DNA of 64,000 nt from Spirochaetaceae bacterium. GTDB taxonomy: Bacteria; Spirochaetota; Spirochaetia; DSM-27196; SKKC01. This document shows positions 2,216 to 38,589 of this stretch, in pieces; within the stretch, counting starts at the first letter, position 1, and each line of letters starts with the position of its first letter. Location of the stretch: contig RECN01000063.1 in the NCBI GenBank assembly GCA_007694005.1, positions 1 through 64,000 of the forward strand, in the 5' to 3' direction. The notes below the pieces were generated by a model. The model saw nothing but the letters and a program-made list of their open reading frames with translations, did no database searches and had not been told where the DNA came from. The position numbers were made by a program, and so were the translations under genes.

Positions 2216-2245
2216 TTGACCCGTATTCTCCGTTCTCGGTAGTAT
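2216..2245 (+). promoter_or_regulatory. Promoter of leuS with almost no leader
   Basis: TTGACC at 2216-2221, an 18-base spacer and TAGTAT at 2240-2245. Only nine bases separate the -10 box from the ATG at 2255, so transcription would start at or next to the start codon. No Shine-Dalgarno is visible. Confidence 0.6.
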
Positions 2246-2254
2246 TTCCGGATC

Positions 2255-5474: not shown

Positions 5475-5559
5475 TGGTCACCTCATCCTCATATACGCGG
5501 AAGAAAAGCGTTTTGCTTGCCCCGTCTACAGGAAACACGCGATACTGACAGCGACAGGT

Positions 5560-6981
5560 ATGGCGAACGAACAGAGTAAATACACGGCACAACTTGAACA
5601 GTCTCTGAACAGCTGGCGCGATCAGATCAACCGGACGCAGCTTCCCGGTATGAAGGAAACGCTTCGAACGTATCGCGCAGCCTTCAAAGGTCTTCTTGAG
5701 CTTCTCGTTCGAAACTCAGCGGTCTCCGAGGACCCCTACGCGCAGGATCACAAAATCTCCGATGTAATGCCGCCCGAGAACGAACCGGTATCAGACAGTG
5801 AGCGCGACCACGTGATCAGCGGGCGCTTGAGCTTCTATGATGCGATGCTCGATTTTCTGACCAACTATTACCAGCTCAGCCTCGACGTGCTTTCGATACG
5901 CGATATCAAGCAGGTGGCCGATACGATCGGGTTTTTCAAGTGGCAGCAGGTCACCGGCCGTGGAAGCACGCACGGCACGACCCGCGCTCTTGCCGAGATG
6001 ATCATCAAACTGCGAGCCTCACTGAATCCGATGCAGTCGGGGGTGCTCACCGAAAACGTCAATCAACTTGTACGCGCACAGAACAGCGTCATGTCGGGTC
6101 TCAAGCAGCTCTCACAGTACAAGCGGGAAGAGTACAAGCTGAATGCCCGCCTGGAAGTCACCGATGCGCTGTTCACCTCAGACATAAACCCGTCTGATCT
6201 CGACGCGGCGATTACCAGCGTAAAAAAGGCATGGAAGGCCAATGGCGTGCAGGCGCCCTTCTACAGCGATCTGTTGCGTGAGGTCCTCGCCGAAGACTAC
6301 ACGGAGGGCGGCCGTCGCGATCGTGATGCACGACTTCAGACCCTCGCGCCACAGGCAACAGGCGGCGAAACGTCCAGAAAGAAGCAGGTACAGGACAGGA
6401 AGGCTCTGCTCGATGCCGTACACGCACTGTCGGCCGCGGGTCGGTCGCTGCAGGAATGCGTTGAACGTCTGACCGAGAGCAGTGAAGAACTGCAGTCTCA
6501 AAGCCGCGGCATCCTGCACGCGCTGAAACGCTGGCTCTCACAGCGTGTACAGGGCGAGAAACCTCACACGGCTTACGAGGTGGAGTACACAGACATTACC
6601 ACCTCGGCAAAGCACAGTGAGACCGTTGATTTTACCGTGTTTATGGAGAAACTCAGCAAGAAAGCCCGGCAGCTGTCGGCACTGGGTCATCGCTCCGGAA
6701 AGGCGTGGTCGCGCCTTCAGACAGCCGACGAAGATCAGGTCCTTGCCTTTCTGACTCGAAGTATCGAAGAGCTTCAGCTTCTGCATCGCACCCTGGCCGC
6801 ACTCGACGAGTTTTTTCGCCGCCACCGGGAACGGATACCGGGTTCGCAGAGCCGGGGGATACGCATCGAGCTTGGTTCGATACGCGACCATATCCGGAAA
6901 TCCAATCAGCTCCGTCACGAGTACGTGGCCCGAAAAGAAGAAGCCGAACAACTGCGAAAGCTCGGCGTTACGGATCAGTGA
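5560..6981 (+). CDS. Conserved-looking cytoplasmic protein of unknown function
   Basis: A 473-residue, highly charged, mostly helical protein without signal peptide or membrane segment. I do not recognise a family. Helical stretches with heptad-like spacing occur around residues 180-220, 275-330 and 400-470. Codon usage resembles that of the neighbours and the frame is long and uninterrupted, so it is probably a real gene. A promoter candidate (TTGCCC, 18-base spacer, GATACT) ends about 13 bases before the ATG; the ribosome-binding site is weak. It stands alone between oppositely oriented genes. Confidence 0.7.
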   Translation: MANEQSKYTAQLEQSLNSWRDQINRTQLPGMKETLRTYRAAFKGLLELLVRNSAVSEDPYAQDHKISDVMPPENEPVSDSERDHVISGRLSFYDAMLDFLTNYYQLSLDVLSIRDIKQVADTIGFFKWQQVTGRGSTHGTTRALAEMIIKLRASLNPMQSGVLTENVNQLVRAQNSVMSGLKQLSQYKREEYKLNARLEVTDALFTSDINPSDLDAAITSVKKAWKANGVQAPFYSDLLREVLAEDYTEGGRRDRDARLQTLAPQATGGETSRKKQVQDRKALLDAVHALSAAGRSLQECVERLTESSEELQSQSRGILHALKRWLSQRVQGEKPHTAYEVEYTDITTSAKHSETVDFTVFMEKLSKKARQLSALGHRSGKAWSRLQTADEDQVLAFLTRSIEELQLLHRTLAALDEFFRRHRERIPGSQSRGIRIELGSIRDHIRKSNQLRHEYVARKEEAEQLRKLGVTDQ

Positions 6982-7011: not shown

Positions 7012-8916
7012 CTATACGCGGTACAGCCCGAGCGTTCTGAGATCCTCACTGACTGCAGCGAGAGCATTCATCCCTTCTTCGAACTTTTCCTTGTCTTCAG
7101 GGATCTGTATGTCGAGGTAAAACATGTAGTTCCACGGTTTACCGGGAATGGGTCGTGATTCGAGTTTCTGCAGGTTCAGGTTCCGCTCGGCGAGAACCTG
7201 CAGACACACAGAAAGCGCTCCCGGAGCGTCGGGTGTCGCAAGAACCAGCGCTGCCATGTTCGGCGTGTCAACGGGAGGGTGATCCCTGTGCCCGACGATG
7301 GCGAAGCGGGTATAGTTGTGGGGGTTCGTCTCGATCCCCTCACGGAGAACGGTCATCCCGTATATACCGGCCGCTTCCCGCGAGGCGATCGCGGCTACCG
7401 CCGGATCGTTTTTCTCCGCGACCAGAGCAACCGACCCCGCCGTATCATAGTGGGGTAATGCGGTAATTCCGTGATCTTCAAGAAACTGTCTGCACTGAGC
7501 AAGGCCCTGCGGATGTGAATACGCCGTTCTGACCGTGTCAGTGGATGCTGCAGCAGGACCGATGAGGCAATGCTCGACCCTGATCTTTGTCTCAGCGAGT
7601 ATCGTTACATCGGGATAGCGTAAAAGCAGGTCATAGTTTTCGTGCACGCTGCCGGCGAGACTGTTTTCGAGTGGAATCACGCCGTACTCGACCTGACCCT
7701 GCAGTACCGCCTCGAAGACGTCGCGGAACGACTCCTTCGCTTCGGCGGTCACATCGTTGGCCTGAAAGTACCGCAATAGCGCGGTCTCGCTATAGGCACC
7801 TCGTGCGCCCTGGAATGCGATTCTCAGCGTGGTGCTCCCGTCGGCTTCTGACACAGGGGTACCCCCGCCGAATACCGGACGCACATCCGGCCGGTCCGGG
7901 AGGCGGACAAGCTCCCGACCGAGCACCGGGCTTATAGCCTCAATATCCCGCATGAGCTTCTCGAACTGCTCCGGATACAGAGTCTGAGGTCCGTCACTCA
8001 TCGCGCGTTCCGGGTCCGAGTGCACCTCGACGATAATGCCGTCAGAACCGACCGCAGCTGCCGCGAGCGCGACGGGAGGGACTTTCTCGCGTATACCAGT
8101 CGCATGACTCGGATCAACGACGACCGGGAGGTGACTGAGTTTCTTGACAACGGGAATAGAGGAAATGTCGAGACTGTTCCGGGTGAAGGTCTCGAAGGTC
8201 CGTATGCCGCGATCACAGAGAATTACGCTCTCGGTTCCGTGAGCAAGCACGTACTCGGCTGCCATGAGCCATTCTTCGATAGTCGCCGACAGCCCCCGCT
8301 TGACCATGACCGGCATGCCGGTCGCCCCGACTTCTTTCAGAAGTTCGAAGTTCTGCATGTTGCGCGCACCGATCTGAAACACATCGACGTATTCACGCAT
8401 CATTGCGACATGCGACGGAGAAACGATCTCGCTGATCACCGGCATTCCCGTCGCCTCACCCGCTTCCTTGAGGTAGCGAAGACCCTCTTCGCCAAGGCCC
8501 TGAAAGCTGTACGGTGAGGTGCGAGGCTTGAACGCGCCACCCCGCAACATGACCGCACCGGACTTGCGGACAATACGGGCGACCTCCAGGATCTGCTCCC
8601 GACTCTCCACGGCGCAGGGTCCGGCGATAACCGTGAAGCGCGATCCCCCGAAGCGGACAGGGCCGACCTGCACCACCGTATCGTCTTTCCTGAGCTCTCG
8701 GCTCGCAAGCTTGTACGGCTTCGTGATCGGGATGACCTTGTCCACACCGGGAAGTATCTCGACTTCGCGCAGATCTATCGGAGACGCCCCCACCGCGCCG
8801 AAAATCGTCTCTTCCACACCGACGATCTCGCGTACCTGAAACCCGTGGTTTTCGAGAAAGCTTCGTATCTGCTCTTTCTGTGCATTGCGGATGTCCCGCT
8901 CAAGAACGACTACCAT
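7012..8916 (-). CDS. DAHP synthase-prephenate dehydratase fusion with ACT domain
   Basis: A 634-residue fusion of the first shikimate-pathway step and a late phenylalanine step. Residues 1-335 are a type I-beta DAHP synthase with its N-terminal ferredoxin-like extension (GPCAVES at 99-105, GARNMQNF at 183-190, [10 protein letters not shown] at 265-274). Residues 365-542 are prephenate dehydratase with the catalytic TRF motif at 536-538. Residues 554-630 are an ACT domain with the ESRP phenylalanine-binding motif at 586-589. One ACT domain could therefore let phenylalanine control both activities. The promoter leaves almost no leader. It is last in a minus-strand row after a methyltransferase and a transglycosylase. 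Confidence 0.93.
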
Positions 8917-22296: not shown

Positions 22297-23904
22297 TTAC
22301 TCGGTCGAATCCGCTGCGGGGTCGGTCCTGCCTGCGATGTCAAGCAGTACGCGATCGAACGGGCGTATGCTTCGATTGTCGGCGAGATCAAGCAGGCGTG
22401 CGCGAAAACCGCGCGCGGTCTCAAAAAACTCAACCGTGCCTATAAGGCCTTCCGGATCGCGGAAGACGAAAGCACGAACTCCCTCGTCAACATCCCGACT
22501 CGGATCAAGATAGATGTGTATCTGCTCAGCATCCCTCGGGTCGACGACGTAGCCGTCCTCCCGGTCATCCTGAATGAGTTCGCCAAAGGCATGCTCAAAC
22601 TGCGAGAGCTGCGAGCGCAGCTGCTCGGTTTCGCTCGCAATTCGCTCTTCCGCGGCAGTCTGTACCCGTGACAGCTCCTGCCTCGTCTCGTTCAGTTGCC
22701 GGCGGACCGTCTCGAGCTCACTGCTCGCCGTATCGCGCTCGGTAGTCAGGGTGTCGACCGAGGCCTCAAAAGACCGCGTCAGATCCGCTCCGGCCCGGTT
22801 AAGCCCTGCGACGAGAGCCTGCGATCGTGACAGGATCTGATCAAGCGCTTCGGGTACGCTGTTCTCGTAAGGAACCTCGCGCAGACGTTCGACTATCTCG
22901 AACAGCTCATCCACGCTGTTTCGCACCTCGGTGAGCTCGGCCTGTCTGAGCACACCCTGCTCAAGAAGCGCGCGTTCGAAAGCTTCGCTCTCAGACTCTA
23001 TAGAGCCGTCGAAAAATGAAGCCTCGAAGAGACGCGCTATGTCTTCGTCGCTGAAATCCGGGTTGTACAGGAGAAAGAGCTCTTCAAGCTCGGCTTCGTG
23101 TTCAGCGACAAGTCGTGCGATCTCGCCTGCAAACTGCTGCCGGAGCGTGAACTCCACCTGATCCCGGTGCTCTCCGAAAGCACCAAGCTCGTCCTGGTAC
23201 GCGGTTCTCAAGGATGTGATCCGTTCCGTGAGGAACTCCTGCTGTCGCTCTAGTTCCAGGTCAAAGAGCCGTCGCTGGTCGTCGAGAATACCGCGACGGG
23301 CAAGCGCGGCGTTCACCTGCGTCTGATCGAACTCCTGCTCCCGGCGACGAAGAATCTGTTCGCGTTCATCTGCAAGAGCTTCGAGCTGTCCGGTGTACTC
23401 GAGGCGGATCTGCTGCCGCTCGGTCTGCAGGGCCTGTTGAGTACGGGCCAGTTCCACACCGAGAACTGCAATACCTGCATCCGCGCGAAGGCGGGCAAGC
23501 TGCCTGTTGCGTTCAGCCCTCTGTTCCGCAAGCTGCAGCCGCTCATCGCGCTCCTGCTCGAGGCTGCTAATCTGATCTTCGATTTCTTCGAGACGGTTTT
23601 CGGTGCGAAGCCAGGCCTGCAGGACGTCGCGGAGGTTGATCTGCTCAAAGTCACCCGACTCGATCTCTTCGATCTGTGAGCTTCGTTCAATCGCGAAGTT
23701 AACGGCAAACGCGACAATGCTGAACAGAAGGACCATTGCAATAAGAACGCCGGGTACGATGAACGTGCGATTCTTTCTCGTCTTTGCAAACTCAGCATCC
23801 AGATCGTACTGGCTCTGCCGACGCCTGAAGTCCTGGACCGCATCACTGAGAAATACAGACTTACTCTGTTCAACGAGATCCGTTACTTTTCCGTCATTGT
23901 CCAT
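22297..23904 (-). CDS. Membrane-anchored coiled-coil protein, unknown function
   Basis: A 535-residue protein. A cytoplasmic N-terminus of about 45 residues precedes one transmembrane helix (about 49-73, FIVPGVLIAMVLLFSIVAFAVNFAI), then several hundred residues of Glu/Gln/Arg-rich coiled coil, and a compact C-terminal domain of about 90 residues (AEQIHIYLDPSRDVDEGVRAFVFRD). The ATG at 23904 overlaps the 3' end of the cyclase gene by 22 bases, so translation is coupled. It may link the inner membrane to periplasmic partners. No family recognised. Confidence 0.7.
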   Translation of the reverse strand: MDNDGKVTDLVEQSKSVFLSDAVQDFRRRQSQYDLDAEFAKTRKNRTFIVPGVLIAMVLLFSIVAFAVNFAIERSSQIEEIESGDFEQINLRDVLQAWLRTENRLEEIEDQISSLEQERDERLQLAEQRAERNRQLARLRADAGIAVLGVELARTQQALQTERQQIRLEYTGQLEALADEREQILRRREQEFDQTQVNAALARRGILDDQRRLFDLELERQQEFLTERITSLRTAYQDELGAFGEHRDQVEFTLRQQFAGEIARLVAEHEAELEELFLLYNPDFSDEDIARLFEASFFDGSIESESEAFERALLEQGVLRQAELTEVRNSVDELFEIVERLREVPYENSVPEALDQILSRSQALVAGLNRAGADLTRSFEASVDTLTTERDTASSELETVRRQLNETRQELSRVQTAAEERIASETEQLRSQLSQFEHAFGELIQDDREDGYVVDPRDAEQIHIYLDPSRDVDEGVRAFVFRDPEGLIGTVEFFETARGFRARLLDLADNRSIRPFDRVLLDIAGRTDPAADSTE

Positions 23905-25577
23905 ACGCCATTCCAGTTCCTTGGGGCCCGCTGACCGCTCATTCGACGCGTAAAGACCTCGGCGACCTTCAGCCCGCAACGCTTGAAGGCGCGTGTCGAA
24001 TCCGCCCACTTTCCTTCGTAATACAGTTGAAGCCCTTCGCTGTACGCTTCTATGTCCTTTTCAAATGCTTCGTCGATTCGACTCCGCTCTATGGGCCAGT
24101 ACACCTGCTTACCCTGCGTCTTACCCTTCACCTGGACGGTATCGAGTTCCATGAACACGTAGTCCGCGAAATCACGCTCCACCTCGTTTTTCACATACTC
24201 ACTCACGATGACCGGTACGTTGTAGAAACGCGTGAGCCCCTCAAGTCGTGCCGATGAGTTCACGTTATCACCGATTACCGTGTTCACCATTCGCTCTTCG
24301 CTACCTATGTTTCCGTAGAAGACCATTCCACCGTCGATGCCGACACCGATCTCGATGAGTACGGCCTCGTACACGCGCTGTTCGGCGTCGGTGAGCGAAC
24401 CGCGCTTGCGGATAATCTCCTCACGCTTCTCGCTCATCTTGCTGCGTAGCGATGACGCAACGTCGTGCAGCAGGTAGGCTGAACGGATCGCCTGATAGGA
24501 CTTGTTTTCGTCTCCCTTCATGGTGCCGAACACGGCCAGGAGCGCGTCCCCGATGATAGAGCCGATGTCACCGTTGTGACTGTGGATGTGCCGTATGGAC
24601 TGATCGTAGTGCAGATTAAGGAGCTTGATGATGTCGGTCCCGAGCGTCTCGGTCATGAACGTGAAGCTGCGAATATCCGTGAAGAGAACCGTCAGGTCCC
24701 GCTGTACCCCTTCGAGGCGGATCTCGCGCTCCTCGTAAGCCTTTGAGGCGACATCGCGTGCGACAAACTTCTTGAAGATGTTCATGAGGTTGTCGATAGT
24801 CCCGGCAAGACTGTTAAACGCGAGTCCGAGATAGGTCACGTCGTCATTCGGAGCACCTGACATGTCAAGCTGGTTGAGCTCCTGCGAGTCCTGCATAGCC
24901 ATGATTGCCCGCGTAATGATCGGGACAAAGCGCAGGATGTAGCGGATAATGATAACGCCAACAACGAGACACACGAGGGAAATGAGGACGATCAGAATCG
25001 AAATCTGCAGGAAGATTTGTCGTGAGCGGGCAAGAAACTCAGACTCCTGCTCGGCCCTCACGAAGTATGCGTTCCATTCGTTATGCCAGCGATACACCCC
25101 GAGCTGTGGTGCACCTTCCATCTGAAAATTAAAACTTCCGTCGAGTATACCCTCGGTGCGGCGGTCGTTCATCTGATCCAGGGCTTCAGAATCAAACGAG
25201 CCGATCTGGTCGACAGGGCCGGCGAAAAACAGAACGCTCCCGTCCGGTCGCACGGCAAGCGCGAGACTTCCCTCGAACTCAAACCTTGTAGCCGCACTCG
25301 CCTCCATGTTTGCTCGTGCGAGGTCTTCGTCCCCCGTGAACAACAGCAACTCCGCCTGCCTGCTCGCGAACAGATGCAGGTCGTTCAGATCTTTTACCAT
25401 GATCTGGTTCAACAGCCGCGCCTGTTCACCACGATTCAACACAAGATTGATGTAGTTCGAGAAGAAGTTTGAGACAAGCAGGAATGCCGCGAAGATGAAA
25501 ATGATCTTCGTCATTAAGGGGACAACTCGTACCCCGTTAATCTTACGTCCGGCAAGTCTTTCGAAAATATCTTGCAT
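23883..25577 (-). CDS. Membrane-bound class III adenylate/guanylate cyclase
   Basis: A 564-residue sensor cyclase. Transmembrane helix 1 (about 18-47) and helix 2 (about 188-215) flank a periplasmic sensor of about 140 residues; a HAMP-like linker leads to a class III cyclase domain (about 285-480). Metal-binding aspartates are D301 (FTDIRSF) and D344 (IIGDALLAVFG); the transition-state Asn and Arg are N440 and R444 (GDNVNSSARLE). The residue four before D344, usually Lys in adenylate cyclases, is Ser340, so base specificity is uncertain. The ATG at 25577 has AGGA nine bases upstream. First gene of a three-gene set. Confidence 0.88.
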   Translation of the reverse strand: MQDIFERLAGRKINGVRVVPLMTKIIFIFAAFLLVSNFFSNYINLVLNRGEQARLLNQIMVKDLNDLHLFASRQAELLLFTGDEDLARANMEASAATRFEFEGSLALAVRPDGSVLFFAGPVDQIGSFDSEALDQMNDRRTEGILDGSFNFQMEGAPQLGVYRWHNEWNAYFVRAEQESEFLARSRQIFLQISILIVLISLVCLVVGVIIIRYILRFVPIITRAIMAMQDSQELNQLDMSGAPNDDVTYLGLAFNSLAGTIDNLMNIFKKFVARDVASKAYEEREIRLEGVQRDLTVLFTDIRSFTFMTETLGTDIIKLLNLHYDQSIRHIHSHNGDIGSIIGDALLAVFGTMKGDENKSYQAIRSAYLLHDVASSLRSKMSEKREEIIRKRGSLTDAEQRVYEAVLIEIGVGIDGGMVFYGNIGSEERMVNTVIGDNVNSSARLEGLTRFYNVPVIVSEYVKNEVERDFADYVFMELDTVQVKGKTQGKQVYWPIERSRIDEAFEKDIEAYSEGLQLYYEGKWADSTRAFKRCGLKVAEVFTRRMSGQRAPRNWNGVWTMTEK

Positions 25578-25630
25578 ACACACCGATCCTTTTACAGGCC
25601 CCGGTCAGATTAACCCAGGATCGAAATAAA

Positions 25631-27140: not shown

Positions 27141-28055
27141 TTACTGCATCTGTATTCCGCTCGGAAGCGCTGCGTTAATGGCGTCGAAGTATTCGTCGAC
27201 AACCTGTGCGGCTGCTGCTTCGGGACGTGTGCCGTCAGCCGAAAGAACCATGATCTCGTTGATAGGCTCGTGAAGAGCAAACCAGTCGGTCTCGTCAAAG
27301 AAACGGAACGCCATTTCGTTCTCTTCCTGGAGTCCCTGGCGAACGATCGTGTTAATGGTCTCTTCGTCGCCGAAGATATTGTTCGTGTCTTCGAGAATCT
27401 TGAGGTCAAAGCGTGCGAACTTGATGTGGGGGTCCCAACCGGTTACTACGATCGGTTCTTCACGGGAAATCGCATCCGAGAGCGCACCCATCATGCTTGC
27501 GTCGCTGCCTTCCGTCAGGGTGAAAACACCGAGACCGGCAACGTCATCGTCGATGGCGCCTTCTGTCTGCGACATCATACCAGCGCCCGGATCGATACCG
27601 GTAATGGTGTTGTCAAACATGTCAGCGTTCGCGGCAAGATCCTCGATGCTGTTGATGTCTTCGAGGTAGGTCGGAACGACCAGACCAAGTCCTGCACCAG
27701 TGAAATGCGGTCCGAGGTCTACGAGAACCTCACTATGCTGTTCCCAGAACGCCTCATGTGTTGCCGGCAGCCATGCCGACACGTGCGCGTCGATATCGCC
27801 TACTGCGATCGCTTCCCACATAGCGGGATTTGCGAGCGAAAGAACCTCGACCTGGAAGCCGATTCGTTCCATGACTTCACCGATCAGGAAGGTGTGAGCG
27901 GGCTCGCGGTCCCATTCAACATACCCGATTCGGACGACACCGAGATCGTCCGCTGCTGCTTCACCGGCGCCGCCGGCAAATGCCATTCCGGTAACAAACA
28001 CCAGAATAAGACCAACAAGCATGATGCCTCGCATCATTTTTGTCGTATTGTTCAT
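27141..28055 (-). CDS. Glycine betaine/proline betaine-binding protein
   Basis: A 304-residue OpuAC/ProX-type solute-binding protein. A signal peptide ends near FAGGAGEAAA. The mature protein starts with VRIGYVEWDREPAHTFL and contains tryptophans in AMWEAI, VSAWLPATHE and VVTGWDPH expected for the aromatic betaine-binding cage. It captures compatible solutes outside the inner membrane for the adjacent permease. A perfect AGGAGG precedes the ATG, consistent with high expression. A 134-base gap with a small stem-loop separates it from the permease gene. Confidence 0.93.
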   Translation of the reverse strand: MNNTTKMMRGIMLVGLILVFVTGMAFAGGAGEAAADDLGVVRIGYVEWDREPAHTFLIGEVMERIGFQVEVLSLANPAMWEAIAVGDIDAHVSAWLPATHEAFWEQHSEVLVDLGPHFTGAGLGLVVPTYLEDINSIEDLAANADMFDNTITGIDPGAGMMSQTEGAIDDDVAGLGVFTLTEGSDASMMGALSDAISREEPIVVTGWDPHIKFARFDLKILEDTNNIFGDEETINTIVRQGLQEENEMAFRFFDETDWFALHEPINEIMVLSADGTRPEAAAAQVVDEYFDAINAALPSGIQMQ

Positions 28056-28147
28056 AAAAGCCTCCTACATATGGCTTTGTGTGGTTATATCCCGAAACAG
28101 ACTGCAACGCAGCAGGCATCGGGATCCTCTACAGTTTCACCACCAAA

Positions 28148-28166
28148 TATCCTATTCCGAAGGATA
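28148..28166 (-). repeat. Small stem-loop between permease and binding-protein genes
   Basis: TATCCT (28148-28153) and AGGATA (28161-28166) can form a 6-bp stem with a 7-base loop in the intercistronic region. Such stems often stabilise the mRNA or tune the level of the binding protein relative to the permease. No T-run is present. Confidence 0.35.
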
Positions 28167-28189
28167 AATGGCAAGTCAGATCTCAAATA

Positions 28190-29053
28190 TCAGCTCGCTT
28201 TCCTGTCCTGTGCCGCAATTTTCTGCGTGACCCGGTCCAGAATCATCGCAAGGATGACGACCGCGAGGCCGGCTGCGAATCCGTCGCCAGGGCGAAGGCG
28301 CTGAATTGCACGCCATACTTCACCACCAAGACCACCCGCACCGATCATGGACGCGATAACGACCATGGACAGCGCGAGCATGATAGTCTGGTTGATACCG
28401 GCCATGACCGTCGGTAGCGACAGTGGAAGCTGCAGCTTGACCAGCTTCTGATAGGTTGTTGACCCGAACGAATCAGCTGCTTCGACCAGTTCCTTGTCGA
28501 TCTGGCGAATACCGAGCGCGGTAAGGCGTATCGTCGGCGGGATCGAAAAGATAACTGTCGACATGATGGCCGACGTAGCCCCGAGGCCGAAAAACGGAAT
28601 CGCGGGTATCAGATACACGAATGCCGGCATGGTCTGCATGAAGTCAAGAATCGGTTTTACGATAAGAAAGAACCGATCGCTGAGGCCAGCGACGATACCG
28701 AGCGGAAGGCCCATGGCTACGGCCAGAATGGTGGCAAAGAAGACCAGTACGAGCGTCGAAACCATGGCTCCCCAGAGCCCGATGTTCCAGATAAACAGAA
28801 ATCCCAGGAACGAACCGATCGCGATGCGTCTACCCGCGATAGCCCAGGCTATACCAACCAGCACAAGTATCAGAACGATGGGCGGAAGCGTATCGAGGAA
28901 GCCGGTGATCCCGCGTATACCGTTGCGGAACACCGTCGACACCGCCCGGGTCGCGGTAGAAAGAAGTGTCGTAAGCACACTCAGTATTGATTCGATCCAG
29001 TCAGAAAGGGGTACCTGGGGTATTATGTCTCCCATTAATTCGCGTGTTCCCAT
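28190..29053 (-). CDS. Glycine betaine ABC transporter permease
   Basis: A 287-residue inner-membrane permease (ProW/OpuAB type) with about six or seven hydrophobic helices. The cytoplasmic EAA loop is EAADSFGSTTYQKLVKLQLPLSLPTVMAGIN, where the ATPase docks. The N-terminal ~50 residues are amphipathic, as in ProW. The start codon lies one base after the stop of the ATPase gene, so the two are translationally coupled. Confidence 0.93.
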   Translation of the reverse strand: MGTRELMGDIIPQVPLSDWIESILSVLTTLLSTATRAVSTVFRNGIRGITGFLDTLPPIVLILVLVGIAWAIAGRRIAIGSFLGFLFIWNIGLWGAMVSTLVLVFFATILAVAMGLPLGIVAGLSDRFFLIVKPILDFMQTMPAFVYLIPAIPFFGLGATSAIMSTVIFSIPPTIRLTALGIRQIDKELVEAADSFGSTTYQKLVKLQLPLSLPTVMAGINQTIMLALSMVVIASMIGAGGLGGEVWRAIQRLRPGDGFAAGLAVVILAMILDRVTQKIAAQDRKAS

Positions 29054-29054
29054 A

Positions 29055-30368
29055 TCAGTTATTCTCCTTATCGGCTTCGTCGGAAGCAGCCTCGTTGTTT
29101 GACCCCGGGGTCAATACCTTGCTCGCAAGCTCCGACGGCTCGTCAATGGACGTGGAATCTGAATGAGATTCTGCGAGGGCTGCAAGGATAGATCCGCGTA
29201 CAATCACACCTTTGAAGTGGTGATCCTCGTCCACGACGGCGATCGGGTTTCCGCTTTCGACCATAGGGAAGAGCGTACGCACCGGCTGATCGAGCGGCAC
29301 CGAAAGGACCGAATCACGGTCGGTTACCTGGTCAAGCCACTTATCTTCGTTCTTGGCCGCCTGCGCTGCCTTGTCTGCGGTCAGATGGCCTACAAGCTCG
29401 CCGCTGCTTTTGACGACGAACATCCCACTCAGGCCGTGTTCCTTCATCTTCCGGAGGGCAACTCTCGGTCCATCCTTCACGAACGCGACAGGAGAGTGAA
29501 TCTTCATGACATCCTGCGCGGTAAGAACCTTCGTGATGTCAACGTTCGCGACGAATCGCTGAACGTACTCGTCGGCCGGATTCGTGAGTATCTCCTCGGG
29601 CGTCCCGATCTGTACTACATATCCATCTTTCATGAGGACGATGCGGTCGCCCATCTTCAGCGCTTCGTCAAGATCGTGTGTGATAAACAGGATGGTCTTG
29701 CGGACTCTGTCGTTCAGAGCGATCAGCTCATCCTGCATATCCGAGCGAATCAGCGGGTCAAGCGCGCTGAAGGCCTCGTCCATGAGCAGGATATCGGGAT
29801 CAACACTCAAGGCACGCGCGAGACCTACCCGCTGTTTCATGCCGCCGGAGAGGTTCTCCGGGTAATAGTCGCCCCACCCGTCGAGACCGACGAGTTTCAG
29901 CGCCGTTTCGGCTTTTTCCCTTCGCACCTCTTTATCAACACCCTGTATTTCGAGCCCGTACTCAACGTTCTCAATGACTCTTCGGTGAGGGAAAAGCGCG
30001 AAGCTCTGAAAAACCATCGAAAACTTCTTGCGACGAACTTCGCGAAGTTCGTCGTCGTTGAGTTTTGTAATGTCAACATCGTCGATGAGAATTTCGCCTG
30101 CAGTCGGATCCATGATGCGGTTTACGCATCTGATCAGCGTACTCTTTCCCGACCCCGAAAGCCCCATAACAACGAGGGTTTCGCCTTCGTACACGTCGAA
30201 GGAGACGTTAGACACACCGACTGCCAGTTTGGTTTTTTCAAGGATCTCATCCTTACTGAGGCCCTTCTTCGAAAGCTCCACCCCACGTGCGGCGTTCTTT
30301 CCAAATACCTTATATACGTTTCGAAGGCTGATCTTAACGTTCGCCTTCTCCGAATTGTTATCAGACAT
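29055..30368 (-). CDS. Glycine betaine ABC transporter ATPase with CBS domains
   Basis: A 437-residue ProV/OpuAA-type ATPase. Walker A is GLSGSGKST, the Q-loop follows in MVFQSFALFPHR, the signature is LSGGMKQR and Walker B is ILLMDEAFSALD. After the nucleotide-binding domain (about 1-280) comes a CBS pair (about 285-405), which in OpuA senses ionic strength or cyclic di-nucleotide, then a Ser/Glu-rich tail. First gene of the uptake operon, with AAAGGA upstream of the ATG. The transporter supports life at changing salinity. Confidence 0.95.
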   Translation of the reverse strand: MSDNNSEKANVKISLRNVYKVFGKNAARGVELSKKGLSKDEILEKTKLAVGVSNVSFDVYEGETLVVMGLSGSGKSTLIRCVNRIMDPTAGEILIDDVDITKLNDDELREVRRKKFSMVFQSFALFPHRRVIENVEYGLEIQGVDKEVRREKAETALKLVGLDGWGDYYPENLSGGMKQRVGLARALSVDPDILLMDEAFSALDPLIRSDMQDELIALNDRVRKTILFITHDLDEALKMGDRIVLMKDGYVVQIGTPEEILTNPADEYVQRFVANVDITKVLTAQDVMKIHSPVAFVKDGPRVALRKMKEHGLSGMFVVKSSGELVGHLTADKAAQAAKNEDKWLDQVTDRDSVLSVPLDQPVRTLFPMVESGNPIAVVDEDHHFKGVIVRGSILAALAESHSDSTSIDEPSELASKVLTPGSNNEAASDEADKENN

Positions 30369-30596: not shown

Positions 30597-30689
30597 ATTA
30601 CGCATCATAATCTTTCGTACACCAATCAGTCGGTCTGTTCCAGAGATTGCTGATTACCCCAAGCGTGTCGCGTGTGCTACTATCGCCGC

Positions 30690-31289
30690 ATGCGAGTAAT
30701 GTGCCTTGATCTTGAAGGAGTCCTGTATCCCGAGGTATGGATTGCTGTAGCGAAGCATTTCGATAATGCCGACCTGAAAGTGACAACACGCGAGATCCCC
30801 GACTACGATGAACTCATGAAACACAGACTCTCCGTGCTGCGTACCGCCGGTATCGGCATGCGCGAGATCACCACGGTACTGAACGGCTTGAGCCCGCTCG
30901 ACGGCGCCGTCTCGTTTCTGCAAACGCTCAGAGCCTCTCTACCCGTGATTATTCTCTCTGACACCTTCGAACAGTTTTCGGTGTCCATTGCACGACAGCT
31001 GAACTACCCGGTAATCCTCTGCAACAGACTCGAAGTACAGGACAACGTCGTCACCGGCTATTCCCTGCGGCAGACCGACGGTAAACGGCGTGCGGTCGAA
31101 GGCTTCAAGACAATGAACCTCGAGGTTTTCGCCGCTGGCGACAGCTATAACGACCTCTCCATGATTCTTGCAGCCGACCGTGGAGCGCTGTTTCGGGCGC
31201 CTGACAGGATAATCGCGGATCATCCCGACATTCCCTCGTACATTGACTACTCCGAACTGCTTGACTGGGCCGGCCTGCACAGCAGCTGA
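30690..31289 (+). CDS. thrH: ThrH-like phosphoserine phosphatase/homoserine phosphotransferase
   Basis: A 199-residue HAD-superfamily enzyme. The N-terminus CLDLEGVLYPEVWIAVA matches ThrH, with the nucleophilic aspartate D7 and the general acid-base E9 in DLEGV; motif III is GDSYND. ThrH from Pseudomonas dephosphorylates phosphoserine and can transfer phosphate to homoserine, linking serine and threonine synthesis. The ATG at 30690 is chosen from the family start; an in-frame GTG lies upstream. TACTAT at 30678-30683 sits six bases before it, suggesting a leaderless mRNA, though no good -35 was found. Confidence 0.88.
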   Translation: MRVMCLDLEGVLYPEVWIAVAKHFDNADLKVTTREIPDYDELMKHRLSVLRTAGIGMREITTVLNGLSPLDGAVSFLQTLRASLPVIILSDTFEQFSVSIARQLNYPVILCNRLEVQDNVVTGYSLRQTDGKRRAVEGFKTMNLEVFAAGDSYNDLSMILAADRGALFRAPDRIIADHPDIPSYIDYSELLDWAGLHSS

Positions 31290-31331
31290 ACAGGGAGACA
31301 TTTGACGACGAGCCCTTGTTATGTACGATTA

Positions 31332-31400
31332 ATGTCGACGATACCCCTGCTTCACGAGTATGTTCGTGCCATGCAGGAACTGAACAGGCGTAAGAACTGA
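31332..31400 (+). CDS. Possible 22-residue small protein or leader peptide
   Basis: ATG at 31332 opens a 22-codon frame (MSTIPLLHEYVRAMQELNRR then KN) whose TGA is directly followed by the ATG of the receiver-Hpt gene. TTGACG at 31303 and AT-rich sequence before the ATG could be a promoter. Placement suggests translational coupling, but the frame is short enough to be chance. Confidence 0.25.
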   Translation: MSTIPLLHEYVRAMQELNRRKN

Positions 31401-32186
31401 ATGGAAATACACGCAGACGTACTTCTCGTCGACGATAACGCAATAAACCAGCTCGTGGCACAGCAGATTCTCAAGAAAGCAGGCTACACCTGTGAGGTGG
31501 TGTCCAGCGGGGAAGAAGCGATCTCACGACTCGGGCGGGAACGATATCGACTCATTCTCATGGATGTGCAGATGCCCGGGCTCGACGGCATAGAGACTAC
31601 CCGTCGCATACGATCCTTTCCGGACGAACAGCCGAACGCCGACGTCCCCATCATAGCCATGACCGCGTATACCACTGCCGAGGACCGGGAAAGCTGTAAA
31701 AGCGCCGGTATGAACGACTACATGACCAAGCCTCTGCAGCTTGACCATTTCCTCACGACGGTCAGGGAGCATCTGGACGGTTCGGGCCCGTCGGCCTCCG
31801 GAAACCAGGAGGACACACCGGATGACCAGGATGAACATCGTCCGGCCAGTTTTGACCTTGACGATGCTCTGGCGCGGACAGGACGCGACCGCGAGCTGAT
31901 CGAACGGACTGTCACCATGTTCCTGAACAGCGCCGCAGAGCGTGTTCGCAGTATCGCCGCTGCGTGTGCCCGGGAAGACTTTCAGAAGGCGCGCGATCTT
32001 GCACACAATCTGCACGGAGCAGCCCTGAATGTTTCGGCCCGAAATCTCGCCCGTATCGCCACACGCATTGAACAGGCCTCACGCGCCGGGGATTGTATTC
32101 AGGCAACGGACGCGGTGGGGGACCTTGAACACGAGCTTGAGCGTGTCCGGACAGCGGTCAAAGACAGCGGCCTTTTACAGACCTGA
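31401..32186 (+). CDS. Response-regulator receiver fused to a histidine phosphotransfer domain
   Basis: A 261-residue signalling protein. The receiver domain (about 5-125) has the acidic pair in VDDN, the phosphoacceptor aspartate in LMDVQMPG and the conserved lysine in TKPL. A linker rich in Asp, Gln and Pro leads to an Hpt domain (about 150-255) with the phosphoacceptor His in AHNLHGAA. There is no output domain, so it is a phosphorelay intermediate resembling the detached C-terminus of a hybrid kinase; the kinase is not in the window. It ends 16 bases before a convergent gene. The ribosome-binding site is weak. Confidence 0.87.
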   Translation: MEIHADVLLVDDNAINQLVAQQILKKAGYTCEVVSSGEEAISRLGRERYRLILMDVQMPGLDGIETTRRIRSFPDEQPNADVPIIAMTAYTTAEDRESCKSAGMNDYMTKPLQLDHFLTTVREHLDGSGPSASGNQEDTPDDQDEHRPASFDLDDALARTGRDRELIERTVTMFLNSAAERVRSIAAACAREDFQKARDLAHNLHGAALNVSARNLARIATRIEQASRAGDCIQATDAVGDLEHELERVRTAVKDSGLLQT

Positions 32187-32202: not shown

Positions 32203-34281
32203 TCATCGGCCCCGGAAGACTTCGTCGAGTATGTGGCGGGTGATCCCGTACAGGGGAGGAACTCCCTCCGAAACCTGCAGCCGGCTCGATAACGCGAGAT
32301 CATGCTGTAGCGGAAGATCGGACACATAGTAGAAAAAGCGCAGATCGACGTCCCGGGAAACGACCCCAAGTTCCATGGACTCGAGCACCTGCCGGTAATA
32401 ATAGGTCCCTTCCATTTCGAGTCCGATGCACTGTCTGATCCGGCGGTAAAAGTTCAGCATGACGCGGTTCTGCAGAAGCGTACCGTCTACCGTGAGTATA
32501 GGGCCACGATGTACCGTGTGTGCAGGTACGCGCTCCTGCAGACGCTTCCAGGGGAAATCCGGCCGGTCGGGAACCGGCTGGAACAGATCTCCGGACTGCT
32601 CGATAAAAGCGGTTGGCTCAAGGATATCGCCCCGTTTGCCGACGAGTGCCCCGGCTTTTCCGAGGAAGTTGATACTCGACACGTTACGGCCGAAGAGCAG
32701 GAGCAGATTCCGCATTATGTGCTCGGCCTGCTCTCCGAATGCGTAATCAATGTTAACGAGGACGATGCGGCGTTCGGCAGTGGGTTTCCGTATGCCCGGG
32801 TCGATCTCGTCCGCGAAAAGGCGCGAAACATCAATCAACTGAACCTGTATCCCCGTCGAAGCGGTACTGCGCAGGCGATATATTCCGGCGCTGTCGGCGA
32901 CGCGGTGGGCATCCTCGGCTTCCTCGGGATGTGCGAGAAAATACGAGCGCGCAGCCGAATACATGCGATCGTATGAGTCCGTCCACGCTGCCTCGTAGAG
33001 TTCCGGCTCATGCTCCTGAGCCCACTGCTCGAGGGCGGTGCCTTTTCGCCGGTACCAGGGGTTCAGACAGTTCGTTACTGAGTGTGTGTTGCTGCTGATG
33101 ATGTGAACTTCAACGTCGTCGGGCAGCAGGGCCGGAGGATGACCCAGCAACTGCCCGGCAGCCTGTGCGACCTGCGATGCCCAGAGTTCGGCTCGCCTGC
33201 TGTTATACGTGTTTGCGCCACGCCGGACATCGATACCGAACATCTCCCGATGACGCACGATCTCGAACAGGCGTCGCGCGGTGTCTTCCGGCCAGACTCT
33301 GGTGATACCGGCTGCCTCCTCCTCGCTGAACGGCAGCGCAGCCAGCAGTTCGTGCAGCGGCGGGTGATCACCGGACGAAAGATAGCTCGAGAGAGCTTCG
33401 AGACACGCAGGGGTACTCAGTCGTTTGCGGATCTTCTTCGCTTCGACTGCGTAGGTGCAGAGGCAGGTCACAAAATCAATAAGATCGGAAACACCGTTTC
33501 TGAGCAGAACGAGGTTCTTTCCCGGCACCATTTCCCATACCTCGCGCCGACGGGCTGAGGTCTCCACCTGGGGGAAGTACTGGTCCGGTGTACTGTAAGC
33601 GCCGACGAGATTGTCGGTCAGGAGCAGAGCGAACGTGCGCGTAATGTTGTCGGGGAGTCGCCGCACCGCGTACGAGAGGCCCGACACGTCAATGACCGTA
33701 GGGTTCGCAGCTCCAGGATGCAGCGCGGGTTCAAGCGACTCATACAGAGGTAAGAGGCGCCGGACGACGAGATAGCCGTTGGTGACGTCCCTGAACAGCT
33801 GGGCCTTGAACCGCTCGAAGGCCGCAAAGATCCCCTGACGATCACGAAGAAGCGTGCCGAGCCCCTGGGCAAATGCACTCGAAACGTTCAGAAGGCCAAT
33901 AAACACGTCTCCGGGGATGCGATACGACCAGGTATCGGTCGTACTGAGTACATTGTAGGTCCGCGGGCAGTCAAAGACCGACTCCCATTCACCAAAATAG
34001 TGCCCCTCTTCTACGGTGCTGATAACTCTCGGAAGGCGACTTCTCTTGTCCAGATCCTGCGGCGACTGTATGGAAGCGGTACCCCCTCCGAGGAGGTACA
34101 CCCAGGTATCGGTCGCGCCCTGCTCTATGATCATATCTCCCGCGCGGTAGGTGCACCGTTCCATGCTGTCGAGTAATCCCAGTCGTTCCGTACCGTTCAG
34201 AAAACGGAATGGAATGACCGCTTCGAGAAGTGCAGACTTTTCTCTATCCGAGCCGGCGTCCCCGCGCTGTTGTACATTCAT
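32203..34281 (-). CDS. Cyclic-nucleotide-binding protein with nucleoside-phosphorylase-like C-terminus
   Basis: A 692-residue protein with an unusual layout. Residues about 22-145 are a Crp-type cyclic-nucleotide-binding domain with the phosphate-binding cassette FGEWESVFDCPRTY. A long helical middle region (about 150-490) is unrecognised. Residues about 505-690 resemble the PNP/UDP-phosphorylase/MTAN fold: NIDYAFGEQAEHIM, FLGKAGALVGKRGDI, the substrate-site motif GLEMEG at 620-625 and a late SD at 654-655 where these enzymes have their catalytic Asp. I infer a nucleotide-regulated nucleoside-processing or base-sensing protein. It lies five bases after the 322-residue unknown gene. Confidence 0.7.
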   Translation of the reverse strand: MNVQQRGDAGSDREKSALLEAVIPFRFLNGTERLGLLDSMERCTYRAGDMIIEQGATDTWVYLLGGGTASIQSPQDLDKRSRLPRVISTVEEGHYFGEWESVFDCPRTYNVLSTTDTWSYRIPGDVFIGLLNVSSAFAQGLGTLLRDRQGIFAAFERFKAQLFRDVTNGYLVVRRLLPLYESLEPALHPGAANPTVIDVSGLSYAVRRLPDNITRTFALLLTDNLVGAYSTPDQYFPQVETSARRREVWEMVPGKNLVLLRNGVSDLIDFVTCLCTYAVEAKKIRKRLSTPACLEALSSYLSSGDHPPLHELLAALPFSEEEAAGITRVWPEDTARRLFEIVRHREMFGIDVRRGANTYNSRRAELWASQVAQAAGQLLGHPPALLPDDVEVHIISSNTHSVTNCLNPWYRRKGTALEQWAQEHEPELYEAAWTDSYDRMYSAARSYFLAHPEEAEDAHRVADSAGIYRLRSTASTGIQVQLIDVSRLFADEIDPGIRKPTAERRIVLVNIDYAFGEQAEHIMRNLLLLFGRNVSSINFLGKAGALVGKRGDILEPTAFIEQSGDLFQPVPDRPDFPWKRLQERVPAHTVHRGPILTVDGTLLQNRVMLNFYRRIRQCIGLEMEGTYYYRQVLESMELGVVSRDVDLRFFYYVSDLPLQHDLALSSRLQVSEGVPPLYGITRHILDEVFRGR

Positions 34282-34286
34282 ACACG

Positions 34287-35255
34287 CTACCCCTGCGGGG
34301 ATATTACTACAGATGGTGCCCTGAGGAGGACCTGAGTCACAGCCGTATCGAGGCGTTCGATGGCGGCTCTATAGGTAGCGTGTTCGGTCATACGGAATAC
34401 ATCATCCTCGAAATAAACTCCCTGCCGGTTCACCCAGCCGAACAGCGGATTCTGAATAACTCCGAGCAATGCTTCTGTATCTATACCGCTGCGACTGCAG
34501 TAGCGTGCAAAGCCCAGATCCTCGACGGGATGAGGCGAGCCGTTACCGTCGACAAGATATCCAAGGCCGTCCAGAATCTGCTCGAAGGGACCGCGCGAAT
34601 AATGGAAGATCCGATTGAGCGGAAGGCGCGGATTCACGAGTCCGGCATCAATAATCTGCTCGTACATTTCCTGTACGAGCTCCTCGAAGTAGCTGTACCC
34701 GACACGGGATCGAAAGAGCATCACGGCAATGTCGGTACCACGATTGTTCTTGTGCAATACGGCCGGAATGTCGGAGGCAACGACCCAGGCTTCGTCCAGG
34801 TGTTTAAGGGTCTGACCTGCGATGATGCAGATCTGCGACTCGTCGACCCAACGCGCAAACATACCCTCAGGTTCCATCTGAAGCACATGAAGGGCCTCAA
34901 AGGCCCCGAGAATATTCGCTGTTTCGAAAGACTCTCCAGTCTGTGACTCAAAGGCGGTCTGCATCCACGGCGTGAACGCCTGTTTCCCATGAACGGCAAA
35001 GTGAAGCTTATGACGGTAGTGCTTCTCGACAACGTGCTGCTCGAGCATGTATTCGCCAGGGAGGTTCGCCATGTACACGAGATCGAGGCCGTTATGATAG
35101 GCGGGACACTGCTTTATGACCCGCATAAGGCGGCTCTCTACCTCCACCCCGTTCGTCTCAGGTCGGAGATAAATGAATATGTCTTCCGCCTCGGGTCCGT
35201 CTGCGGGTCCGGTATACGGCACCAGGACGGTCGGGGCCTGATCTGCATGCGGCAC
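34287..35255 (-). CDS. Unknown protein paired with the cyclic-nucleotide-binding protein
   Basis: A 322-residue, apparently cytoplasmic protein. No signal peptide, membrane helix or known catalytic motif is visible. Mixed alpha/beta composition with segments such as DIFIYLRPETNGVEVESRLM, GMFARWVDESQICIIAGQ and RGPFEQILDGLGYLVDGNG. The five-base spacing to the next gene implies co-translation with the cyclic-nucleotide-binding protein and probably a shared job. It follows pheT by about 50 bases on the same strand, so it may also receive pheST transcripts. Confidence 0.65.
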   Translation of the reverse strand: MPHADQAPTVLVPYTGPADGPEAEDIFIYLRPETNGVEVESRLMRVIKQCPAYHNGLDLVYMANLPGEYMLEQHVVEKHYRHKLHFAVHGKQAFTPWMQTAFESQTGESFETANILGAFEALHVLQMEPEGMFARWVDESQICIIAGQTLKHLDEAWVVASDIPAVLHKNNRGTDIAVMLFRSRVGYSYFEELVQEMYEQIIDAGLVNPRLPLNRIFHYSRGPFEQILDGLGYLVDGNGSPHPVEDLGFARYCSRSGIDTEALLGVIQNPLFGWVNRQGVYFEDDVFRMTEHATYRAAIERLDTAVTQVLLRAPSVVISPQG

Positions 35256-35304: not shown

Positions 35305-37041
35305 TTATACTCCGGATTCACGCGAGAGCAAGGAGCCGATATTCAGCTCCGCAGCAGTCGTCGGCATACTTATACCCCAGTTCTCAAGGACCTGCGGGTG
35401 TAACTCACCCATAATGCCTGCTATCCGTCCCGCGACACGTATCTTCGCACAGCGACCGGCGATAAAACGCGAATCATCCGCCGCCTCATAACGCGCGTCG
35501 ATGTTCAGGAAATAGAGCATGGTATTCACTTTATCGCGTACGGTATTGAACGTTGATTCGACATCCGACAGGACGAGACCCAGCACATCGTCCGTCCGTG
35601 TTCCGCTGGAATCGGCGGCATCACGCACGGCGACTTTTCCGACCTCGAATATCAGATGCGGATAAACCGCGTGGGCGGAAACGGCCTCAGCAGAAAGGAG
35701 CGACGGCAAGACCGAAGGTCGCACATACTCATAGTTTTCGCTCATGGGATTCTGTATGCGCACCATGGCGGAATCATAGGCGTCGGACTCGTCGGTTGCG
35801 ACCGGCTGCATGCGGTCGAGATAGTCGCGACGCGAGCCTAAGTAGTTGAAGACCATTTCCTGAAAGCCAAGACCGACAAGGACCGTTTTTACGTCCCGGG
35901 ACAGAACCTCGACCGCGGTCAGACGCCCGACCGTGAAGTCCTGAAGCATGGTCGGCTCGAAGTTGCCCATGCCGTAGCCGATCATGATGTCCTCGGCGAT
36001 ATCGACGGGATGCAGAAAGTCGTTCCGGTACGGTGGCGGCTGCACACGAACGCTGCCCCCGGTCTCCGCTGCAATGCAGCCCATGCGGCCGAGCAGCCGA
36101 ACACAGTCCCCGGCAGTGAGCGATACCCCGAGCCACTTCGACGCAAAGGCTGGCTCGATTTCGACCGGGGTCTGGAAGTACTGCGGTGTCACGACCGTCG
36201 TTCCGGCAGGAGTATCGTAAGGATACTCGATGCAGACCGGCTCAATCGTGAATCCGGCGTCCGCAAGATCGCAGGCAACGATGGAGCACGCAAGATGCAG
36301 TACGCTCTGATCCGTTCCCGTAAGCTCGATGAAAAGCGAACTGTCACCGACTTCGACGGCACCGAGACGGGCGCTGTTGATGACAGGGGGAAAGCTGAGA
36401 GCGTCCCCGCCAGCGTCTTCGAGGTAGGGCATCTTCGGAAAGTCAGCCACAATATGCCCGAAATCGCGCCCTTTTGGATGCTCGGTGATCATCTGTCGCA
36501 GGCTCATGGCGCGTTCCTCGGCGAGCGGTATGAACTGCGTCGCGTCGGGATCTGCCGCCCGGTACGAGACAGGGAACTGCATGAGATCACTGCGATATAT
36601 GCCCATCGCAACGGCCCGCCGCTTCTGCCCGTAATTCCAGCAGAGTTTTTCCTGGGTCTGAATGATGTCGTTGAGCGTCGACTCATCGATCGAGGGGCCG
36701 CGTGCGACGAAACCTGCAATGTATGGCCGAATATCCTTCAGACCTGCATCGACCTGCACTACCCGGCTGCCGCATTCTTTCGGTGCGTCGGTGGTACTGA
36801 AAAAGTCATACTCGGAAATGGCCCCACCGCGGTACACGCGAAGCTGTCGGCCAAGTCCCGCAGTCGACCAGAGGTCAGGCCTGTTCGTGTCGTTCAGCTC
36901 GATTTTCAGAAGCCCGTGTTCGTCTTCCCATTCATCGACCTCTGCCTTCGCGACGGAAAGCTGTTCTTCCAGCACGTCGTTCTGCAGTCTTTCTCCGATG
37001 TATGTGTCCAGTGCGTTTCTGTACAACTCGATTTTTGGCAT
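35305..37041 (-). CDS. pheT: Phenylalanyl-tRNA synthetase beta subunit, archaeal/eukaryotic type
   Basis: A 578-residue beta subunit. Ordinary bacterial PheT is about 800 residues with N-terminal EMAP-like and C-terminal anticodon-binding (FDX-ACB) domains; this one is short and matches the archaeal/eukaryotic form (MPKIELYRNALDTYIGERL, IELNDTNRPDLWSTAGLGRQLR, PPYRNDFLHPVDIAEDIMIGYG). Spirochaetes are known to have this type. It forms the alpha2-beta2 enzyme with the gene just upstream (3-base gap). The B3/B4 editing domain lies in the N-terminal half. Confidence 0.93.
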   Translation of the reverse strand: MPKIELYRNALDTYIGERLQNDVLEEQLSVAKAEVDEWEDEHGLLKIELNDTNRPDLWSTAGLGRQLRVYRGGAISEYDFFSTTDAPKECGSRVVQVDAGLKDIRPYIAGFVARGPSIDESTLNDIIQTQEKLCWNYGQKRRAVAMGIYRSDLMQFPVSYRAADPDATQFIPLAEERAMSLRQMITEHPKGRDFGHIVADFPKMPYLEDAGGDALSFPPVINSARLGAVEVGDSSLFIELTGTDQSVLHLACSIVACDLADAGFTIEPVCIEYPYDTPAGTTVVTPQYFQTPVEIEPAFASKWLGVSLTAGDCVRLLGRMGCIAAETGGSVRVQPPPYRNDFLHPVDIAEDIMIGYGMGNFEPTMLQDFTVGRLTAVEVLSRDVKTVLVGLGFQEMVFNYLGSRRDYLDRMQPVATDESDAYDSAMVRIQNPMSENYEYVRPSVLPSLLSAEAVSAHAVYPHLIFEVGKVAVRDAADSSGTRTDDVLGLVLSDVESTFNTVRDKVNTMLYFLNIDARYEAADDSRFIAGRCAKIRVAGRIAGIMGELHPQVLENWGISMPTTAAELNIGSLLSRESGV

Positions 37042-37044
37042 TGC

Positions 37045-38589
37045 TTACTTCCTCCGTCGCAGACGAACCCGTTCAAGGTCGTTCGAGAACAGCTCGCGCA
37101 GATCGTTCAATCCAAGATGCATGAGAGCCATCCGATCGATACCGAGCCCCCACGCGAGCACCGGGACGTCAATGCCGAGCGGTGCAGTGACTTCGGGGCG
37201 GAATATACCGGAACCGCCAAGCTCAAACCAGCCGAGTTTCGGGTGCTTGATATGAACCTCAACCGAAGGCTCAGTAAACGGAAAATAGCCCGGTACGTAC
37301 TTGACCTCAGTCGCTCCTGCAACCTCTTCAGCAAACATCTTCAGCATGCCGAGCAGCGTTCTGAGATTCACGTCTTCGCCGAGTACGATGCCTTCCGTCT
37401 GATAAAAATCGCTCAGATGCGTAGCATCGACCTGATCGTAGCGGAAACACCGCACGATGCCAAAGTACCGGCCGGGCACCTTGGCCTTCGGCAACTGTCT
37501 GGCCGAGAGGACCGTCCCCTGACTTCGAAGGATGAGCCTTCGCGTGAAGTCGCGGTCGAATCCGTAGTTCCAGCCCCTGCTGCCGGTGGTCCATCCGTTC
37601 TCGTGAACCGCAGCGACCTGATCGAGGTAGGGCTGTTCGATCTCGCGCGCGTGCGTCGGCTCGGCAACGTAATATACGTCATGAATATCCCTGGCTGCGT
37701 GAAACTGGGGCATGAACAACGCGTCCGAGTTCCAGAACTCCGTTTCGACGACCGGTCCATCAAACTCCTCGAATCCGAGTCCGACCAGCGTGTCTTTCAC
37801 TGACTCCAGGTATTCGGCATATGGATTACGGCGCCCCGGTATGAGTCGTGCGGGCGGCGTTTCGATGTTATATGAGCGAAAGCTCGCGTGTTTCCAGGAA
37901 CCATCACGCAGCATAGCCGGTGTCAATGACCCCGTTTCCTCACCGGTGAGTCCGGAATCCGCAGCCGCCTTCCGGGCGGCCTCGCCGGATTCGGTAAAGC
38001 GATACACAACCTCGTTTCGTTCCACAATGCGGAAGGCGACGGAACCGGCGCCCCGTTTTTTTGCGATGCCCTGAACCGCGGTACGCTCGGCGTCAGCGAG
38101 ACTCTCTTCTGCCAGTGCACCTTCACGAACCGCACGCTCGAGGATCCCACGGACAAGCGGCACCCAGTCAGCCTTCGCCGGATCGAGCAGAACGGCACGC
38201 TTCTCTGAGTCCATCTGCACCGCCCCGGCCTTGGAAAGCGCTCCAAAGGCCGATCCGATGTCGCGCATTTCGAGCCCGCAGGCTGAAGCAAGCGCTGGAA
38301 GCGGCGTAGCGCCGTCCTTTTCAAGCACACGAAGCAGCCGTTCCTCCGGCGCACCCGTGTCGGCGTACTCTTTCCCGAGTTCGGTAAGCTCGTAGAAGAC
38401 CCGAGCCGTCCGTGACGACTCTTCGATAAGGCCTTTCGCCGCAAGCCAGCTCACAACCTGGTTGCCCTGCCCCTCTTTGAGACCGACACGTGCCACCATC
38501 TCGGGAACAGTGAGCTCTGACGCTCCCGAAAAATGCAGAAGAACCCTGATTTCTAGTGGATGAAAGCTGCGAATATCAATATCTGTCAT
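37045..38589 (-). CDS. pheS: Phenylalanyl-tRNA synthetase alpha subunit, archaeal/eukaryotic type
   Basis: A 514-residue catalytic subunit. The N-terminal ~200 residues hold winged-helix-like modules (HPLEIRVLLHFSG, EMVARVGLKEGQGNQVVSWLAAKGLI) found in archaeal/eukaryotic PheS, which bind tRNA. The class II catalytic domain follows with GFEEFDGPVVETEFWNSDALFMPQFHAARD (motif 1 region), FGIVRCFRYDQVDATHLSDFYQTEG (motif 2) and GWFELGGSGIFRPEVTAPLGI leading to motif 3 (AWGLGIDRMAL). Longer than bacterial PheS (about 330-350). Transcribed with pheT. Confidence 0.95.
   Translation of the reverse strand: MTDIDIRSFHPLEIRVLLHFSGASELTVPEMVARVGLKEGQGNQVVSWLAAKGLIEESSRTARVFYELTELGKEYADTGAPEERLLRVLEKDGATPLPALASACGLEMRDIGSAFGALSKAGAVQMDSEKRAVLLDPAKADWVPLVRGILERAVREGALAEESLADAERTAVQGIAKKRGAGSVAFRIVERNEVVYRFTESGEAARKAAADSGLTGEETGSLTPAMLRDGSWKHASFRSYNIETPPARLIPGRRNPYAEYLESVKDTLVGLGFEEFDGPVVETEFWNSDALFMPQFHAARDIHDVYYVAEPTHAREIEQPYLDQVAAVHENGWTTGSRGWNYGFDRDFTRRLILRSQGTVLSARQLPKAKVPGRYFGIVRCFRYDQVDATHLSDFYQTEGIVLGEDVNLRTLLGMLKMFAEEVAGATEVKYVPGYFPFTEPSVEVHIKHPKLGWFELGGSGIFRPEVTAPLGIDVPVLAWGLGIDRMALMHLGLNDLRELFSNDLERVRLRRRK

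Follow-up and report, generated by a model that had tools for sequence, protein, structure and literature searches.

A cyclic-nucleotide-binding domain fused to DUF6909 in a spirochaete protein, a predicted nucleosidase of the PNP/MTAN/AMP-nucleosidase superfamily

The described enzyme that best matches the fold of the C-terminal half of the protein reported here is AMP nucleosidase (Amn; structures 2GUW, 1T8R/S/W and 7UWQ). In AMP nucleosidase, the base and sugar are bound by N205, W383, M404, E405 and D428 and the phosphate by R381 and K436 together with H188 and Y189 from the neighbouring chain, and distant homologues of known structure keep only M404, E405 and D428 of this active site (PMC9584410). 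MTA/SAH nucleosidase and purine nucleoside phosphorylase (PF01048) have the superfamily and the catalytic Glu and Asp in common with the protein described below, which differs from them in carrying approximately 220 extra residues of the Pfam family DUF6909, in having SSNxHS rather than GAMEEE or GDPxR in the strand-1 loop, and in matching PF01048 only below the family cut-off. On the sensor side, the closest described relatives are the cyclic-nucleotide-binding (CNB) domains of PKG and PKA and of the spirochaete channel SthK. To our knowledge, few CNB-controlled enzymes have been described beyond kinases, exchange factors and acetyltransferases.

The window analysed here is the whole stretch of 64,000 nucleotides taken from contig RECN01000063.1 of a Spirochaetaceae bacterium (GCA_007694005.1). 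Within it, a CNB-DUF6909 protein of 692 aa (ATG start) is encoded at 32203-34281 on the minus strand, by a gene present in a single copy in the genome, and a conserved protein of 322 aa (GTG start) is encoded 5 bases upstream on the same strand, at 34287-35255. Because third-position GC is of the coding type in both ORFs and both proteins are conserved (~40-95%) across one bacterial order, we regard the two as real genes. Directly upstream of the 322-aa gene and on the same strand lie pheT and pheS (35305-38589), assigned by Pfam, spacing and synteny; judged from spacing alone, pheS, pheT and both ORFs may form one transcription unit, and promoter and terminator scans gave a signal no better than that in shuffles. 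The convergent neighbours on the plus strand, a thrH-type phosphatase and a receiver-Hpt protein (30672-32186), are often retained in relatives.

The CNB domain (PF00027; residues 44-132; 33886-34152, minus strand) matched its Pfam profile at E = 9.4e-9, with 35.6 bits against a cut-off of 27.5. The nearest solved structures by sequence were the PKG/PKA regulatory domains and SthK, which have the cassette Glu and Arg in common with the 692-aa protein, whereas here the domain is fused to a predicted enzyme of a different fold; furthermore, Trp-Glu follows the cassette Glu where usual CNB domains have Leu-Ala. The phosphate-binding cassette is intact, with Glu98 retained in 27/27 CNB-bearing relatives and Arg107 in 25/27 of them, and from these features we infer that the domain binds cAMP or cGMP and acts as a gate. 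Class III cyclase catalytic domains number 14 in the genome, including one encoded in the window, so a source of ligand for the CNB domain is likely. The cyclase-domain protein in the window (class III adenylate/guanylate type, 566 aa; PF00211, E = 4.5e-14) is encoded at 23883-25583 on the minus strand, 7 kb from the CNB protein.

Residues 173-689 were matched by Pfam DUF6909 (PF21850) over the whole model (positions 1-534 of 535; E = 3.1e-125; 419 bits versus a cut-off of 27), making the protein a member of a family whose Pfam entry carries no function. In a literature search that had most subscription papers outside its scope, DUF6909 was named nowhere, and a fusion of a CNB domain with a nucleoside phosphorylase was likewise not mentioned. 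The novelty would lie in an established type of sensor being joined to a predicted superfamily enzyme that had no previous assignment, DUF6909 itself being already catalogued. The N-terminal half of the family (residues 173-380; 33142-33765, minus strand), delimited by the PF21850 match and by conservation, contains the invariant residues Y204, R208, R244, R246, D269, E280 and K283; no relative of this half was recognised, and hhalign against the N-terminal domain of AMP nucleosidase returned nothing.

The C-terminal half (residues about 390-692; 32206-33114, minus strand) was placed in the PNP/MTAN superfamily on the basis of PNP_UDP_1 (PF01048) matches and Foldseek. In the 692-aa protein the PNP_UDP_1 match fell below the cut-off (21.3 versus 25.1 bits; residues 520-625; E = 1.9e-4), but it is unlikely to be due to chance since matches to the same profile recurred in 19/33 relatives (E up to 1, the best being 1.1e-6). 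An AlphaFold model built on a 33-sequence alignment reached a pLDDT of 90.1 and a pTM of 0.87, and its top Foldseek match in the PDB was AMP nucleosidase (2guw, E = 5.6e-9), with further matches to CNB structures and to many MTAN/PNP structures (E ~1e-7 to 1e-8, probability 1.00, TMt 0.60-0.65). The alignment with 2guw spans ~500 columns at an rmsd of 21, so it is the core alone that superposes on AMP nucleosidase. A profile of DUF6909 alone yielded chance matches only when searched against the PDB; the link between DUF6909 and PNP thus rests on the Pfam matches and the fold. As modelled, the C-terminal half has a PNP fold. A preliminary description of this DNA had proposed a CNB-PNP fusion from three motifs, namely the cassette FGEWESVFDCPRTY (residues 96-109), GLEMEG (residues 620-625) and a late SD (residues 654-655). 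All three were found in the protein, and both the fusion and the PNP-type C-terminus are supported by the Pfam profiles, by the model (pLDDT 90) and by its Foldseek matches to AMP nucleosidase, MTAN and PNP. The approximately 340 residues that the same description had called unrecognised belong, on the other hand, to catalogued DUF6909, which also takes in the PNP part.

Profile comparison pointed in the same direction. The C-terminal half scored 31.5 with hhalign against an AMP nucleosidase profile (E = 0.0018; hhalign E-values ranged over 0.0018-0.005, with low probability) and 23.2 against an MTAN/PNP profile (E = 0.028), while three decoys (NDK, a reversed PNP profile and the upstream gene) scored 12.9-14.5. 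The difference between the AMP nucleosidase and MTAN/PNP scores is only a hint because the MTAN/PNP control profile was built from 7 sequences, and with E-values this modest the comparison is weak by itself and serves as supporting evidence only. The hhalign alignment was colinear throughout, starting with the strand that precedes GKAG and reaching as far as SDLPL, and the following segments stood in register with those of AMP nucleosidase: GKAG/RGD with GHCGGL/GD, GP..T with TGTVVTTD, LEMEG with IDMES, and SDLPL with SDKPL. Within GLEMEG (32407-32424, minus strand), M623 and E624 correspond to M404 and E405 of AMP nucleosidase, and S654-D655 (32317-32322, minus strand), which contains the putative catalytic Asp in an SDxPL motif, aligned with SD428KPL; these positions were invariant in 33/33 members.

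The two proteins accordingly have in common colinear motifs including SDxPL as well as the catalytic Met, Glu and Asp, and AMP nucleosidase was both the top fold match and the best profile match. N398 (33/33), the Asn of an S/T-N motif that closes strand 1, probably also occupies the position of N205, a placement made by eye only. The DUF6909 protein could on these grounds be a spirochaete substitute for AMP nucleosidase that splits AMP into adenine and ribose 5-phosphate and in which the CNB domain stands in for the classical regulatory N-terminal domain. That domain, AMNp_N (PF10423), was absent by Pfam from the 692-aa protein and was found in 0/296 Spirochaetota genomes, which would fit a replacement, but its absence says little since 11/14 control genomes lacked it too; moreover, DUF6909 occurred in only 19/296 sampled Spirochaetota genomes, leaving most spirochaetes with neither. 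Unlike AMP nucleosidase, the protein carries a CNB domain in front, and no equivalents of R381, K436, H188 or Y189 were conserved in the DUF6909 alignments, nor did Trp383 have an evident equivalent. Non-conservation of the phosphate-binding residues argues that the DUF6909 protein is not an AMP nucleosidase, and we consider the substitute reading unlikely.

We predict instead, with moderate confidence, that the protein is a cAMP/cGMP-gated N-glycosidase of the PNP/MTAN/AMP-nucleosidase superfamily, one that would act by hydrolysis rather than phosphorolysis and whose natural substrate would be a purine compound other than AMP. Binding of cAMP or cGMP by the N-terminal CNB domain would alter access to, or the geometry of, the nucleosidase active site, where Glu624 and Met623 would hold the ribose and base, Asp655 would protonate the purine, and water, not phosphate, would attack the sugar; the invariant charged cluster in the middle of DUF6909 probably either contributes the remainder of the active site or provides a binding site for a phosphate-bearing ligand. 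The choice of water over phosphate bears on another reading, that of a phosphate-dependent nucleoside phosphorylase gated by a cyclic nucleotide. The PNP_UDP_1 family includes phosphorylases, and the invariant K542 in GKAG could conceivably hold phosphate. In hexameric PNP, however, phosphate is held by Arg residues (Arg24 and Arg87 of DeoD) for which the aligned motifs contain no equivalent, and AMP nucleosidase, a hydrolase, outscored MTAN/PNP; a phosphorylase is, in our judgement, improbable.

A different possibility is that the protein is a non-catalytic sensor or scaffold, in which a nucleoside or nucleotide occupies the PNP-like pocket, the CNB domain receives a second signal, and another protein is regulated. 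A single chain with two ligand-binding folds would suit such a role, as would the wide conservation outside the catalytic triad (SSNxHS, DYAFG and a charged N-terminal cluster). Nevertheless, M623, E624 and D655 show no variation across a very deep divergence, in CNB-less members as well, and the motifs are intact even in Bacteroidota, which would be unusual for a pseudoenzyme; we therefore find a purely sensory protein rather unlikely. If the gated nucleosidase is taken one step further, the second messenger would allosterically switch a DUF6909 enzyme that cleaves a non-AMP purine compound, possibly a signalling or damaged nucleotide, such that cyclic-nucleotide signalling would act directly on nucleotide breakdown and not via transcription or a channel. 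We put this fuller version forward tentatively. A cyclic-nucleotide-gated nucleosidase would, if real, be a new kind of output, one through which the numerous class III cyclases of spirochaetes might exert a direct allosteric effect, while DUF6909 gains a testable superfamily and a set of putative catalytic residues.

DUF6909 was found in 37/61 close relatives, mostly in single copy. The CNB region was present in 27/27 alignment members of the window's class (L045, which starts near a contig edge, was left out of this count) and absent from six members (about 555-595 aa) that belong to a different spirochaete class and from two plasmid-borne Persicobacter (Bacteroidota) members of 562 aa. Since members without a CNB domain exist, gating is no inherent property of DUF6909 proteins. 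The CNB-bearing members formed one side of a branch with an SH-aLRT of 99, with a long-branch warning on two rows, a topology consistent with either one gain or one loss of the CNB domain. The CNB-less Persicobacter genes lie on large plasmids (L121 and L122, around 4797-6545), a location that suggests transfer between phyla, and in one of them the gene adjoins a mechanosensitive channel gene. In one genome (L106; G302, family f56; 2083-3467), no CNB-DUF6909 gene separates the upstream gene from the receiver/thrH genes and the gene order is otherwise preserved, an apparent clean loss of the gene; the same is suggested for other f56 genomes without DUF6909.

The gene setting also bears on a role in immunity, since PNP domains serve elsewhere as immune effectors, as in Detocs, and the protein might by analogy destroy nucleotides on infection. 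PADLOC gave no specific match (only TIR-effector matches at E of about 0.01 over the CNB part), there was no match among phage records, and the gene is single-copy and is kept throughout an order next to pheST and thrH, which are housekeeping genes. An effector of this kind appears extremely improbable, and the defence-like module envisaged in the preliminary description is not supported.

The 322-aa upstream protein had no Pfam or NCBIfam match and is not homologous to DUF6909. Its model (pLDDT 86) gave no significant Foldseek match in the PDB, the best matches, mostly nucleoside diphosphate kinases (NDKs), having E values of 0.14 or worse and a TMt of about 0.5. Thirteen residues, including R31, P32, E40, Y80, K151, H218 and D229, were invariant over 27 diverse family members, and in the same alignment the invariant H218 stands in an HxS context with S220 at least 90% conserved; equivalence of this His to NDK His118 was drawn by eye only. 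The order of strands and helices and the HxS motif resemble those of NDK, from which the protein differs by a ~95-residue insertion. The similarity is suggestive of a divergent NDK, yet it found no support in Pfam (no NDK (PF00334) match at E up to 10 in the 27 members) or hhalign (E = 0.13 over 13 columns), and a role as the sole NDK of the genome was ruled out by a normal NDK encoded elsewhere in it.

Among the 61 relatives, 35 had both genes, 2 had DUF6909 only, 14 had the upstream gene only and 10 had neither (Fisher p = 8e-4, uncorrected for kinship). Where both were present, the two lay at most 3.5 kb apart on one contig in 26/35 genomes, and in a few of these (L037, L038 and L039) the pair was split by several hundred bases or by an additional ORF. 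The upstream gene also follows pheT without DUF6909 (L089 and L106) and occurs in other spirochaete classes with neither pheT nor DUF6909 beside it. Thus, of the earlier proposal of a partner gene, the conserved side-by-side arrangement stands, whereas an obligate or dedicated partnership does not, because 14/61 relatives and many other spirochaetes have the gene without DUF6909; by its genomic distribution, the adjacency is real and order-wide, and the upstream gene is a neighbour rather than a proven partner. Elsewhere in the window, a DAHP synthase-prephenate dehydratase fusion is encoded as a single 634-aa protein (7012-8916, minus strand), and an ABC transporter set at 27141-30368 (minus strand), comprising a binding protein, a permease and an ATPase with two CBS domains, is probably of the glycine-betaine type.
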